From contig JAILGV010000132.1 in assembly GCA_024696355.1 (NCBI GenBank), forward strand, positions 1-64,000: DNA of 64,000 nt, in the 5' to 3' direction. This document shows positions 39,717 to 44,850 of this stretch, in pieces (within the stretch, counting starts at the first letter, position 1; every line of letters starts with the position of its first letter). The position numbers were made by a program, and so were the translations under genes. The stretch is from Solobacterium sp. (lineage in GTDB: Bacteria > Bacillota_I > Bacilli_A > Erysipelotrichales > Erysipelotrichaceae). Below the pieces are notes generated by a model. It searched no databases. It was not told where the DNA came from and saw nothing but the letters and a program-made list of their open reading frames with translations.

Positions 39717-40298
39717 CTTTTCATAAATATTCCTGATTTTTTCCCATAAGATTTCAATGCCGTCCCTGTTTACGCAGGATACGGGCACTGCACTCTGCCG
39801 GGATATGTTCAGTGTTCTGCAGATGATGTCAATCTGGGCGTTCTGACGCATACGGCTCAGCTTGTCGCATTTGGTGCATGCCGCAATCACCGGAAGATGA
39901 GCATTTCTGGCATAATCTACCATGTGCATGTCATCCTCATTCGGCACCCTTCTGATATCAAGAACGATCAGAAGTGCTTTCAGCTGTCTGCGGTTTCTGA
40001 AATACGGATCAATCAGCCTGGCAAAGCGGACCGTACTGTCCGTACCGCCCTTCGCATATCCGTATCCCGGAGCATCTGCGAATACTACTTCATCATCAAC
40101 GCTGAAGAAATTCAGAAGCTGCGTCTTTCCGGGTGTTTTCCCCGCATATGCCGCATTTTTCCTGTTGACAAGAGCATTGATCAGACTGCTCTTGCCGGCA
40201 TTGGACCTGCCTGCAAATATAATTTCAGGCAGCTCGGACTGCGGCCACTGCGATGCATTGGCACTCGTTGCCAGAAGCGTGACCTGATAGTATTTCAT
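39702..40298 (-). CDS. engB: Ribosome biogenesis GTPase YsxC/EngB
   Basis: A 198 aa essential-type GTPase that acts in late 50S subunit assembly. G1 is GRSNAGKSSLINAL (about residues 30-43), G3 is DAPGYGYAKGG (about 75-85), and G4 is TKCDKLSR (about 143). The length and order fit EngB. Its start overlaps the lon stop by one base; the lon-ysxC order is widespread in Bacillota. Confidence 0.96.
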   Translation of the reverse strand: MKYYQVTLLATSANASQWPQSELPEIIFAGRSNAGKSSLINALVNRKNAAYAGKTPGKTQLLNFFSVDDEVVFADAPGYGYAKGGTDSTVRFARLIDPYFRNRRQLKALLIVLDIRRVPNEDDMHMVDYARNAHLPVIAACTKCDKLSRMRQNAQIDIICRTLNISRQSAVPVSCVNRDGIEILWEKIRNIYEKKEQA

Positions 40299-42613
40299 CA
40301 GCGCACCAGTGCTTCCTTAAGCACCTGTGACATATTCTCGACCGGAACAAACTTCACATTGTCCCTTACCGCCTGAGGCACATCATCCAGATCTCGGATA
40401 TTCGCCTTCGGCATCAGAATCTTTGTGATGCCCGCTCTGTTTGCGGCAAGAGATTTCTCACGCAGTCCGCCGATCGGCAGGACATTTCCGCGCAGCGTCA
40501 CTTCTCCGGTCATGGCCAGATCCGAATATACCGGCGTATTGCTCAGTGCCGACACAAGAGCAGTCGTCATTGTAACACCGGCTGAAGGTCCGTCCTTCGG
40601 TACGGCGCCTTCCGGCACATGGATATGAATATCATGGGTGGAGAAGAATTCCGGATCGATGCCGAACTCCTCGGCATGCGCCTTGACATAGTCAAGAGCG
40701 ATCTCCGCAGATTCTTTCATAACATCGCCGAGCTTTCCTGTCATCACAAGCATGCCCTTTCCTTTAAAGCTGTTGACTTCGATGGAAAGAACATCACCTC
40801 CGAATGATGTATAAGCCAGTCCCGTTACAACACCGACCTGATTTTCCTTTTCCCTGACACCGTATTCAAAGATAATCTTTCCGAGCCATGTCTTGATCAG
40901 CTTCTCGGTTACCGTAACACTCTTCTTTTCATCGTTCAGGATTGCCAGAACCGTCTTTCTGCAGAGGCTTCCGATCAGTCTTTCAAGCTGTCTGACGCCG
41001 GCTTCGCGCGTATAATGACGGATCATGAAGAGAATCTCTTTTTCCCTGAGCTTGAACTGTGAAGGCTTCAGACCGTTCAGCTCCAGCTGCTTGGGAATCA
41101 GGTGTTCCTTTGCGATGTGAACCTTGTCAACTTCCGTATAGGAAGGAAGCTCAATGATCTCAAGTCTGTCCTGCAGCGGCGCCGGAATATTATCCAGATA
41201 GTTTGCCGTAGCGATGAACATGACTTTCGAAAGATCATACGGTTCTTCAAGATAATGGTCCGAGAAGAACTGGTTCTGCTCGGGATCAAGCACTTCCAGC
41301 AGTGCATCGCTGGGGTCGCCTTTGTAATCCATGCCCATCTTGTCGATTTCATCGATCAGGAAGAGCGGATTGATGACGCCGGCCTTCTTCATGCCCTGAA
41401 TGACTCTTCCGGGCAGAGAACCCAGGTATGTTCTTCTGTGTCCTCTGATCTCAGCCTCATCCCTGACTCCGCCCAGGCTCATCTTTACAAACTTTCTGTC
41501 CAGTGAACGGGCGATCGATTTGGCAAGAGATGTTTTTCCCACTCCCGGAGGACCTACAAGGCAGATAATCGGTGCATTCAGATTTCCGGTCATCTGCTTG
41601 ACAGCGAGATACTCCATGATTCTGTCCTTGACTTTTGTCAGACCGTAATGATCTTCATCAAGAATGCTCTTAACTTCTTTCAGATTCTCGTTGTCTTTTG
41701 TTTCCTGCCACCAGGGAACTTTCAGAAGCCAGTCAAGATATGAACGCTCAACTGAAGCCTCTCCGCTTCCCGGCGGAAGCATTTCATACCTCTGCAGTTC
41801 CTCGCGTGCCTTTTCCTTGACATGTTCGGGATACGGATTCTTTTCAATCATTTCCCGCATCTGCTGGGTATCATCGGTAATGTTGGAAACATCACCCAGT
41901 TCCTCTTTGATTGCCTTCAGTTTCTCCCTGAGGAAGTATTCCTTCTGGGAATCATCAATATGTTCCTTGACCTTCTGATTGATTGTGCTTTCAATCTGGG
42001 AATACTGCTGCTGCTTTTCAAGCTCGGCAATAATCATAACCATACGGTCATTGATATTGTATGTTTCCAGAAGCTTCTGCTTAACTGCTGTGTCAAGCGG
42101 GAAAAACTGTGCAAACTGATCGGTAAGCGTTGAAGCGGAAACTCCTCTTGAGAGCTGGCTGACAACGTCCGCAGGGAAAGAACTTGTAACGGAATTCGCC
42201 TTTTCAAATTCGGAGATAATCCTCTTGACAAGAGCCATTTCCTCTACGGAATTACCGTGCACATCCTCTCCGGGTTCCACTTCAGCAAGCATAATGTCAC
42301 TGCTGTCAAAAATTTTAGAAAGATGCGCACGCTTCATGCCGGTGAAAGTCACCCTCATGAAGCCTTCCTTTCTGCGCACGATCTTTACCTTGCTCAGCGT
42401 ACCGGTCCGGTATAGATCTTTTTCGCCCGGGTTATCCACCATGATGTCATTCTGGCAGACGATCCATACCATGCTGTCATACAGTGAAGAAGCTTCGTTG
42501 ACAGCATTGATTGATTTCTGTCTGCCGACTTCAATCATGACATCCTGTCCGGGAAATACAACGATGCCGCGTGTGCAGATCACAGGAACTTTAATCGTAA
42601 TATCGTTTTTCAA
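40298..42613 (-). CDS. lon: ATP-dependent protease Lon (LonA)
   Basis: A 771 aa AAA+ serine protease degrading misfolded and regulatory proteins. The N-terminal LON substrate domain covers about 1-200, a coiled coil follows, the AAA+ module has GPPGVGKTSLAK (about residue 353) and LIDEIDKMG, and the C-terminal protease domain has KDGPSAGVTM (catalytic Ser near 677) with its partner Lys in the LREKSLAANRAG segment. The start is a TTG six bases after GGGAGG. It follows the trigger factor gene after a terminator; ysxC overlaps its end. Confidence 0.97.
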   Translation of the reverse strand: MKNDITIKVPVICTRGIVVFPGQDVMIEVGRQKSINAVNEASSLYDSMVWIVCQNDIMVDNPGEKDLYRTGTLSKVKIVRRKEGFMRVTFTGMKRAHLSKIFDSSDIMLAEVEPGEDVHGNSVEEMALVKRIISEFEKANSVTSSFPADVVSQLSRGVSASTLTDQFAQFFPLDTAVKQKLLETYNINDRMVMIIAELEKQQQYSQIESTINQKVKEHIDDSQKEYFLREKLKAIKEELGDVSNITDDTQQMREMIEKNPYPEHVKEKAREELQRYEMLPPGSGEASVERSYLDWLLKVPWWQETKDNENLKEVKSILDEDHYGLTKVKDRIMEYLAVKQMTGNLNAPIICLVGPPGVGKTSLAKSIARSLDRKFVKMSLGGVRDEAEIRGHRRTYLGSLPGRVIQGMKKAGVINPLFLIDEIDKMGMDYKGDPSDALLEVLDPEQNQFFSDHYLEEPYDLSKVMFIATANYLDNIPAPLQDRLEIIELPSYTEVDKVHIAKEHLIPKQLELNGLKPSQFKLREKEILFMIRHYTREAGVRQLERLIGSLCRKTVLAILNDEKKSVTVTEKLIKTWLGKIIFEYGVREKENQVGVVTGLAYTSFGGDVLSIEVNSFKGKGMLVMTGKLGDVMKESAEIALDYVKAHAEEFGIDPEFFSTHDIHIHVPEGAVPKDGPSAGVTMTTALVSALSNTPVYSDLAMTGEVTLRGNVLPIGGLREKSLAANRAGITKILMPKANIRDLDDVPQAVRDNVKFVPVENMSQVLKEALVR

Positions 42614-42650
42614 ACTGCACCTCCCTGATCATAACGATCATTCCATCGGA

Positions 42651-42679
42651 TAAAATAAGACGCCCGGCGTCTTATTTTA
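42651..42679 (-). terminator. Terminator of tig
   Basis: A 13 bp stem (42651-42663 with 42667-42679, 3-base loop) ending in UUAUUUUA on the minus strand. It separates tig from lon. Confidence 0.85.
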
Positions 42680-42690
42680 TAGTATTGTTT

Positions 42691-43965
42691 TTAAGCTTTT
42701 GCTGCGTTGTCCTTGACGAACTTGTAGGCAAGCTGGTTGACGACATCAGCCTTCAGCATTTCCGGATCAACAAGAGCCTTGACTCTTTCTACATCCATGT
42801 CATACTGCTGGGCAATATTTTCATATTCTTTGTTGATGTCTTCTTCACCTGCAACAAGGTTTTCCGCTTTGGCAACTGCTTCAAGAACCAGTCTGAGCTT
42901 GACGCTCTTTTCAGCATTCTCCCTGTAGGACTCTCTGAGATCTTCAATCTTCTGTCCCATCATGGAAAGATACTGATCAAGCTTCATGCCGTACTGACTG
43001 ATCTGGCTTGACATCTGATTGATCATTCCCTCAACTTCGTCTTTGATCATGACTTCGGGAATATCAACTTCTGCATTTGCAGCGAGTCTGTCGAACAGTT
43101 CACTGTCAGCCTTGGATTCCGCAGCATTCTTTTTGTTTCCTTCCAGTCTTTCTCTGACCAGCTTTTTCAGGTCATCAACAGTCTCAACGCCGGGAGCGTT
43201 GACATCCTGAGCAAAATCATCGTCAAGTTCAGGAAGAACCTTTGTCTTAACTTCGTTAACTTTTACTTTGAAGACAACTTCAGCACCTGCAAGGTCTGCC
43301 GAATGATAATCTTCGGGGAATTTCAGATTCAGATCCTTTTCATCTCCGGCTTTTACACCGACCAGCTGCTCTTCGAAGCCCGGAATGAAGCTTCCGCTGC
43401 CGAGAACCAGATCATATTTCTCTGCTGTGCCGCCGTCAAATGCAACACCGTCTTTTAATCCCTGATAGTCAATGTTGACTGTATCTCCGTTTTCAGCCTC
43501 ACCGTCTTTGACTTCCATATCTGAATATGTTTCGCGCATACGGTTGAGTTCAGCATTCAGTTCATCTTCTGTTACTTCGATGCTGTCCATGCTGTAGGGA
43601 AGTCCTTTATACTCGCCAAGTTTTGCCTCGGGTTTTACCGGGAATTCAAATACAACCACTGCTTTTTCATCGTCAACTGATTTGATATCGAGGGAAGGAC
43701 GGTCAATCGGTGTAACACCGCACTCAGCCATGCCTTTCTGCAGCCAGTCATTTGCATTGTCTTCAATTGCCTGAATCTGACGTTCCTGTACAGGAACCTT
43801 CTTTTCCAGAAGCTTCTTAGGAACCGCACCTTTGCGGAATCCGTCAATCTGCACCTTTTTTGCAAGTTTGTTAAATGACTTTTCAACTGCCTTTTTCCAT
43901 TCATCACCTTCAACAGTGACGACTAATTCTCCAACTGATTTTTCTTTCAATGTCCATTCTGACAT
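42691..43965 (-). CDS. tig: Trigger factor (peptidyl-prolyl isomerase chaperone)
   Basis: A 424 aa ribosome-bound chaperone. The N-terminal ribosome-binding domain includes the loop GFRKGAVPKKLL (about residues 42-53, GFRxGKxP type), the FKBP-type isomerase domain spans about 155-245 (NGDTVNIDYQGLKDGVAFDGG), and the helical chaperone domain follows. It shields nascent chains at the ribosome exit. AAAGGAGC lies about 11 bases before the ATG. Its promoter is overlapped by two CIRCE-like operators, so HrcA heat-shock control is predicted. Confidence 0.96.
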   Translation of the reverse strand: MSEWTLKEKSVGELVVTVEGDEWKKAVEKSFNKLAKKVQIDGFRKGAVPKKLLEKKVPVQERQIQAIEDNANDWLQKGMAECGVTPIDRPSLDIKSVDDEKAVVVFEFPVKPEAKLGEYKGLPYSMDSIEVTEDELNAELNRMRETYSDMEVKDGEAENGDTVNIDYQGLKDGVAFDGGTAEKYDLVLGSGSFIPGFEEQLVGVKAGDEKDLNLKFPEDYHSADLAGAEVVFKVKVNEVKTKVLPELDDDFAQDVNAPGVETVDDLKKLVRERLEGNKKNAAESKADSELFDRLAANAEVDIPEVMIKDEVEGMINQMSSQISQYGMKLDQYLSMMGQKIEDLRESYRENAEKSVKLRLVLEAVAKAENLVAGEEDINKEYENIAQQYDMDVERVKALVDPEMLKADVVNQLAYKFVKDNAAKA

Positions 43966-44064: not shown

Positions 44065-44091
44065 TTAGCACTCTCAGCCACAGCCTGCTAA
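44065..44091. promoter_or_regulatory. CIRCE-like operator 1 (HrcA) of tig
   Basis: TTAGCACTC, nine bases, then GCCTGCTAA. The left arm is the perfect CIRCE half; the right arm matches GAGTGCTAA at seven of nine positions. It covers the predicted transcription start (about 44086). Confidence 0.7.
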
Positions 44092-44092
44092 T

Positions 44093-44121
44093 ATATTAAC
44101 CGTTCGTTTTAGCACTGTCAA
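44093..44121 (-). promoter_or_regulatory. Sigma-A promoter of tig
   Basis: Perfect TTGACA (44121-44116), a 17-base spacer and TAATAT (44098-44093) on the minus strand. The -35 lies inside CIRCE-like operator 2 and the start point inside operator 1. Confidence 0.8.
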
Positions 44122-44135
44122 CTATTAAGTGCTAA
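44109..44135. promoter_or_regulatory. CIRCE-like operator 2 (HrcA) of tig
   Basis: TTAGCACTG, nine bases, AAGTGCTAA: eight of nine matches to the CIRCE consensus in each arm. The palindrome extends to perfect 11-base arms (44106-44116 and 44128-44138). It overlaps the -35 box. Confidence 0.75.
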
Positions 44136-44145
44136 AACCGGTGCG

Positions 44146-44850
44146 TCATGACAGTTTTTTGATTTTAGCGGCAGTTTCGCTGCGCCTGTTTTCCACTTCT
44201 TTCATGGTTTCCTGATCATCCATCATGCTGCAGATTTCTTTTGCCTTCTGATATGCAATGATTTCCGCCTCTTCCTTTTCATAGCTGAGCGGAAGATACA
44301 TATATGCATCGCTGATCAGCAGGGTTTTCGCCATTTCCAGAAGCGCGGGATTGGATCCCAGCCAGTTTTCCAGATAACTGCATGCATACAGAAATCCTTC
44401 GCTTCTGGCCACAGGCGTCACGGAGTCACCGCTGAAGGAATACTCCACACCTTGCTTCACATACACAAATTCGTCCTGGATTTCCTGCTCGGCAAGCGCG
44501 TTGATGATAAAAGCAGCTGCTTCGGGCAGCGGGTCCTTTGACAGCCAGTCCCTGATTTCATCAGTGCATGCTCTCAGATTGCGGTCGCAAAGCTTCTCTG
44601 CGGCCGTCAGCTGCGACTGCGGCCTTCCCTTCAGCTTCCTCAGAAGTGCATCCAGGCTTTCTTCGGTATTTTCTCTTTTTTCCGCTTTTCTGAACTGTAT
44701 TTCTTTTTTCATCGCAAACAGTCTCTGTTCTGCATCAGCCGGAATATACGGCATGGACAGTTCTTTTCTGATCAGATAGTCTGCTTCATCCAGTTCATTA
44801 TTCTTCAGCGCACGGCTGATCTCTTCCAGTACATCATCATAATAACTCAT
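44146..44850 (-). CDS. Helical repeat-like protein of unknown function
   Basis: A 234 aa soluble protein, almost wholly helical and highly charged, with no signal peptide or membrane segment. Its start (DDVLEEISRALKNNELDEADYLIRKELSMPYIP) and closing helices look like TPR-type helical repeats; it may belong to the DUF3196 group, but I am not sure. The middle part (about 120-190) is less charged and could bind a partner. CGGAG precedes the ATG. It is transcribed toward tig, with the tRNA-Arg gene upstream on the same strand. Confidence 0.6.
   Translation of the reverse strand: MSYYDDVLEEISRALKNNELDEADYLIRKELSMPYIPADAEQRLFAMKKEIQFRKAEKRENTEESLDALLRKLKGRPQSQLTAAEKLCDRNLRACTDEIRDWLSKDPLPEAAAFIINALAEQEIQDEFVYVKQGVEYSFSGDSVTPVARSEGFLYACSYLENWLGSNPALLEMAKTLLISDAYMYLPLSYEKEEAEIIAYQKAKEICSMMDDQETMKEVENRRSETAAKIKKLS

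Follow-up and report, generated by a model that had tools for sequence, protein, structure and literature searches.

Does the heat-shock repressor HrcA control the trigger factor gene, tig, in this Solobacterium? HrcA and its CIRCE operator define the classical class I heat-shock regulon, known from groESL and hrcA-grpE-dnaK of Bacillus subtilis. In the window (the whole 64,000-nucleotide stretch of DNA that was analysed), the original prediction placed two CIRCE-like operators over the promoter of tig. The features of the locus are as follows:

44146..44850, minus strand: upstream gene, an open reading frame with a weak DUF3196 match (PF11428, E 4e-6, just below the Pfam cut-off)
44109..44135, minus strand: predicted upstream CIRCE operator (operator 2 of the original prediction), overlapping the −35 box of promoter P1; two mismatches to TTAGCACTC-N9-GAGTGCTAA
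44116..44121, minus strand: −35 box of P1, TTGACA, within the upstream operator (promoter scan, 10/12 matches)
44093..44098, minus strand: −10 box of P1, TAATAT, 17 nt after the −35 box (promoter scan)
44065..44091, minus strand: predicted downstream CIRCE operator (operator 1 of the original prediction); two mismatches to TTAGCACTC-N9-GAGTGCTAA
44001..44009, minus strand: P2, extended −10 promoter TGTTATACT, CIRCE-free, ~35 bp before tig
42691..43965, minus strand: tig, trigger factor, 424 aa (TIGR00115, 410 bits; cut-off 180)
42650..42680, minus strand: terminator-like inverted repeat ATAAAATAAGACGC...GCGTCTTATTTTAT between tig and lon, with a conserved stem sequence
40298..42613, minus strand: lon, ATP-dependent protease, directly downstream of tig (TIGR00763, 924 bits)

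The tig product is complete, with Trigger_N (PF05697), FKBP_C PPIase (PF00254) and Trigger_C (PF05698) domains. The upstream gene lies on the same strand and its stop falls 10 bp before the upstream operator, and there is no divergent gene; tig would thus be the only gene directly served by the operators, and control of another gene can be set aside.

The details given for the two operators in the original prediction were all found in the sequence. The upstream operator, TTAGCACTG-TCAACTATT-AAGTGCTAA, matches CIRCE at eight of nine positions in each arm, has a nine-base spacer and overlaps a perfect TTGACA; the downstream operator, TTAGCACTC-TCAGCCACA-GCCTGCTAA, has a perfect left arm (9/9), seven of nine matches in the right arm and again a nine-base spacer, and it covers the inferred start point of P1. 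Each departs from the consensus at two of 18 arm positions, mostly inner ones, and the spacing is exact. In the congeners the left arm of the downstream operator is nearly always TTAGCAGGC, so that both tig operators are, on alignment, systematically weaker than the consensus at inner arm positions; the upstream operator departs from it in the right arm because the −35 box is held there. Given these two mismatches per operator, affinity for HrcA may be below that of the perfect site at groESL. In work on the Mollicutes, CIRCE elements with up to two mutations were taken as functional (PMC5138195).

The two operators bracket the core promoter. They lie 44 bp apart in this genome, the TTGACA sits inside the upstream one, and the −10 box ends 1 nt before the downstream one begins. 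P1 is thus, by the match of its boxes, a sigma-A promoter bracketed by two predicted operators. This arrangement is retained in the genus, which we sampled as the 49 species having enough sequence upstream of tig, with identity figures taken from 30 non-redundant species. Among the latter, TTGACA is present in 28, the distance from −35 to −10 is 17 nt in 27 of these 28 (16 nt in the other), and the downstream operator begins 0–3 nt past the −10 box.

The operators themselves are conserved in a manner that looks like selection on protein-binding sites around a promoter. CIRCE is found before tig in 47 of 49 congeners, 35 of which have a double and 12 a single operator, and the spacing of the double operators is 44 bp (27 species), 46 bp (5) or 43 bp (3). 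Across the 30 non-redundant congeners, arm identity is 97% for each operator, whereas it falls to 57% in the upstream spacer outside TTGA and 46% in its flank, and to 43% in both the spacer and the flank of the downstream operator. The original prediction had pointed to the tig upstream regions of relatives as the place to look for conserved arms, and that is where they appear. Neither of the two findings that it named as counting against it, a genome without hrcA or unconserved arms before tig, was made here. In two congeners (L123 and L180) both operators have been lost, which indicates that HrcA control of tig is dispensable.

Could such palindromes arise by chance? Two mismatches in each operator might make this plausible, but in the 64-kb window these are the only sites with three or fewer mismatches, against 0.01 expected from dinucleotide-preserving shuffles, and the reversed CIRCE pattern has zero matches in the same tig upstream regions. 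With conservation in 47/49 congeners, chance is vanishingly unlikely and we reject it. We consider it highly likely that both inverted repeats are genuine operators of HrcA.

The rest of the genome (assembly of 2.63 Mb, 83% complete) holds the partners that such control would need. There is one full-length hrcA (TIGR00331, 318 bits) and there are 11 CIRCE sites with three or fewer mismatches, against none for the reversed control pattern; ten of the 11 lie at chaperone or protease genes (hrcA counted in), eight of these outside tig. Apart from tig, the sites are distributed as follows:

groESL: one CIRCE, a perfect match
hrcA: two CIRCE, 44 bp apart (L010/L012); the order hrcA-grpE-dnaK is deduced from just the beginning of the following gene
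htpG: two CIRCE, 48 bp apart (L003/L006)
single hsp20 gene: CIRCE site
hsp20 gene pair: CIRCE site
ftsH: CIRCE site
contig end: the eleventh CIRCE, next to a promoter nearly identical to that of the hsp20 pair

The sites at groESL and hrcA(-grpE-dnaK), together with hrcA itself, are those that the original prediction proposed to look for. Its description of CIRCE as an element of groE and dnaK operons fits these two loci; the regulon seen here is broader, extending to htpG, the hsp20 genes and ftsH. At the hrcA and htpG promoters a double CIRCE brackets a TTGACA promoter as at tig, with spacings of 44 and 48 bp. Two near-identical CIRCE promoter regions, L007 (G000, end of C61) and L011 (end of C188), appear to be a duplicated hsp20 locus at an assembly break.

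We also considered CtsR as a co-regulator. A CtsR profile model has no match in the genome, a weak negative in that the model matched only one of 14 known control genomes and missed B. subtilis; CtsR-box-like sites number one, against five for a control pattern. On this evidence CtsR is apparently absent, and we tentatively rejected it as a co-regulator.

Taken together, operators, promoter and regulon make trigger factor a very probable member of the heat-shock regulon of HrcA, both in this bacterium and in nearly all of its genus. HrcA is probably not in sole charge of tig. A TGNTATAMT motif stands at the position of P2, at a similar distance from the start codon, in 49/49 congeners, where shuffles expect 1.2%, and a P2-type box also precedes tig in many genera lacking CIRCE there, often as the only recognisable promoter. 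P2 therefore looks like the old housekeeping promoter of tig, and it should keep the gene on at normal temperature. Since this CIRCE-free promoter lies nearer to tig in every congener, HrcA control is probably an extra heat-shock layer. The original claim that tig is placed under HrcA is thus strongly supported for P1, by hrcA, the genome's CIRCE regulon and the conserved arms, and does not extend to P2.

The original prediction did not take in the second gene of the locus. The lon gene adjoins tig downstream in every genus-level and family-level row examined; here the two are on the same strand, and a promoter scan of the gap found none. Between them is the terminator-like hairpin, which is unique in the genome and is present with its T-rich arm in 50/50 genus rows (exact 7-bp arms AAGACGC..GCGTCTT in 43/50), so that any read-through into lon would be partial. 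Through the tig promoter, lon may be a co-target of HrcA.

To place the genus in its family, we surveyed 48 other genera of Erysipelotrichaceae, one species per genus. CIRCE precedes tig in 12 of these 48, in a patchy distribution and in two architectures. It is present in all three of the nearest named relatives (two Solobacterium MAGs and one Erysipelotrichaceae MAG), in double form in two of them, and Longibaculum muris has a single CIRCE before tig. In a second clade, of nine genera (84% support), there is a single tig promoter at about −70 with CIRCE over its −35 box; HrcA would there act on the sole visible tig promoter. Genus G054 carries a double CIRCE promoter between tig and lon. A single origin of tig-CIRCE was weighed against the tig tree, on which the state needs at least six changes, with gain and loss indistinguishable and many deep forks poorly supported; the trait also occurs in Longibaculum. 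Because hrcA is found in 53/57 family genomes and CIRCE sites in 52/57, most genera without tig-CIRCE retain the HrcA/CIRCE system. Outside the family, no CIRCE was found near tig at 73 loci (Bacillus, Paenibacillus, Staphylococcus, Listeria, Lactobacillaceae, Clostridia and others), which rules out tig-CIRCE as a general trait of the Firmicutes.

Several other readings of the operators must be weighed. That they serve mainly the heat control of lon, with tig carried along as the first gene of the transcript, is the strongest of these, although we think it unlikely. It draws on the position of lon directly after tig across the family, on the G054 promoter and on the mycoplasmas and their relatives: in Mycoplasma pneumoniae, lon is an established HrcA target, transcribed both together with tig and from a CIRCE promoter of its own, just before lon, that HrcA controls (PMC7737663, PMC12494982), and CIRCE is likewise found at lon in M. 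gallisepticum (PMC4245973) and Spiroplasma (PMC5138195). However, the hairpin in all 50 genus rows should limit read-through from tig, and in almost all lineages CIRCE stands before tig rather than before lon. The point at which HrcA acts on the tig-lon locus seems to differ between lineages.

The remaining readings leave the inverted repeats with little or no role as operators. A CIRCE-free P2 could swamp HrcA regulation of tig, and its presence in every congener, along with the loss of the operators in two of 49 species, would fit a situation in which HrcA binds but almost all of the tig mRNA comes from P2, whatever the temperature. We judge this improbable: the arms, spacing and P1 boxes have been selectively kept amid scrambled spacers and flanks, which argues that both P1 and its control contribute to fitness, and the second clade has CIRCE over the −35 box of its only visible tig promoter. 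The repeats might also work at the RNA level, forming a 5′ hairpin that changes the stability of tig mRNA, given that the downstream operator would be part of the P1 transcript's 5′ leader and that a partly transcribed CIRCE has a precedent in cyanobacteria, where the groES start site lies inside CIRCE (PMC2662882). This is very improbable, as the upstream operator overlies the −35 box and would not be transcribed from P1, and the consistent TTAGCAGGC left arm downstream makes for a weaker hairpin yet leaves the outer bases of the operator in place. An Rfam search over the tig region gave no significant match.

We therefore favor, with considerable confidence, the explanation that P1 is a double-operator, HrcA-repressed heat-shock promoter beside a basal P2. 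By analogy with B. subtilis, GroEL/ES would keep HrcA active at normal temperature, and HrcA would shut P1 with two dimers about four helical turns from each other, one over the −35 box and the other over the start point. P2 would meanwhile make basal tig mRNA, with some read-through into lon, a step for which the mycoplasma systems are also a model. When misfolded protein occupies GroEL, HrcA would lose activity and P1 would open; trigger factor and part of Lon would then rise together with GroESL, DnaK, HtpG, Hsp20 and FtsH. More tentatively, at a little under even chances, HrcA may be the one master proteostasis repressor of the genus, CtsR apparently being absent, and may govern tig, groESL, dnaK, htpG, hsp20, lon and ftsH through a single GroEL-titrated signal, with the two promoters of tig providing a constitutive base and a heat boost and with tig recruited more than once in the family.

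How does this compare with known systems? The operator sequence, the 9-9-9 layout, the overlap with a sigma-A promoter, the predicted hrcA autoregulation and groESL as a target are as in B. subtilis; the predicted regulon here also takes in tig(-lon), htpG, hsp20 genes and ftsH. Two CIRCE elements at one promoter are known from the hrcA operon of Lactobacillus plantarum (PMC3842655) and from dnaK and clpB of Spiroplasma melliferum (PMC5138195), but here they occur at tig, on either side of the core promoter at a fixed spacing of 43–46 bp, and a second promoter, free of CIRCE, follows downstream. With M. pneumoniae (MPN331-MPN332) this locus shares the order tig then lon and control by HrcA/CIRCE, which is predicted here, co-transcription being known there; in that species the CIRCE promoter lies between the two genes and controls lon, whereas here it lies before tig. 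In the open-access literature searched, we found no report of tig as an HrcA target or of a tig-CIRCE. What appears new is thus tig as a predicted member of the HrcA regulon, HrcA/CIRCE, the double CIRCE and the lon target of the Mollicutes being already known. A conserved heat-shock promoter on tig that is coupled to GroEL would, if true, tie folding at the ribosome to the DnaK/GroE/Lon network; for the control of lon by HrcA in mycoplasmas, it would offer a likely background. Cultivable relatives exist in Solobacterium and Longibaculum, in which control of tig can be tested.

The survey yielded some further observations. In two genomes rated 98–99% complete (G016 and G055) no tig, hrcA or CIRCE was found, nor even a candidate on initial inspection, by true loss, misplacement or search artefact. 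Six genera (G001, G003, G014, G022, G028 and G039) have second, more divergent trigger-factor-like genes alongside the main tig. The stem of the tig-lon hairpin, AATAAGACGC..GCGTCTTATTTT, is nearly fixed while its loop varies, and a terminator with conserved letters is unusual; a stem of the form AAG[AG]CGC..GCGTCTT occurs in 34/49 other family rows. Outside the family, mostly in Bacillaceae and Paenibacillaceae, a conserved stem that is similar but not the same, AAGGCACG..CGTGCCTT, follows tig at 37 of the 73 loci.
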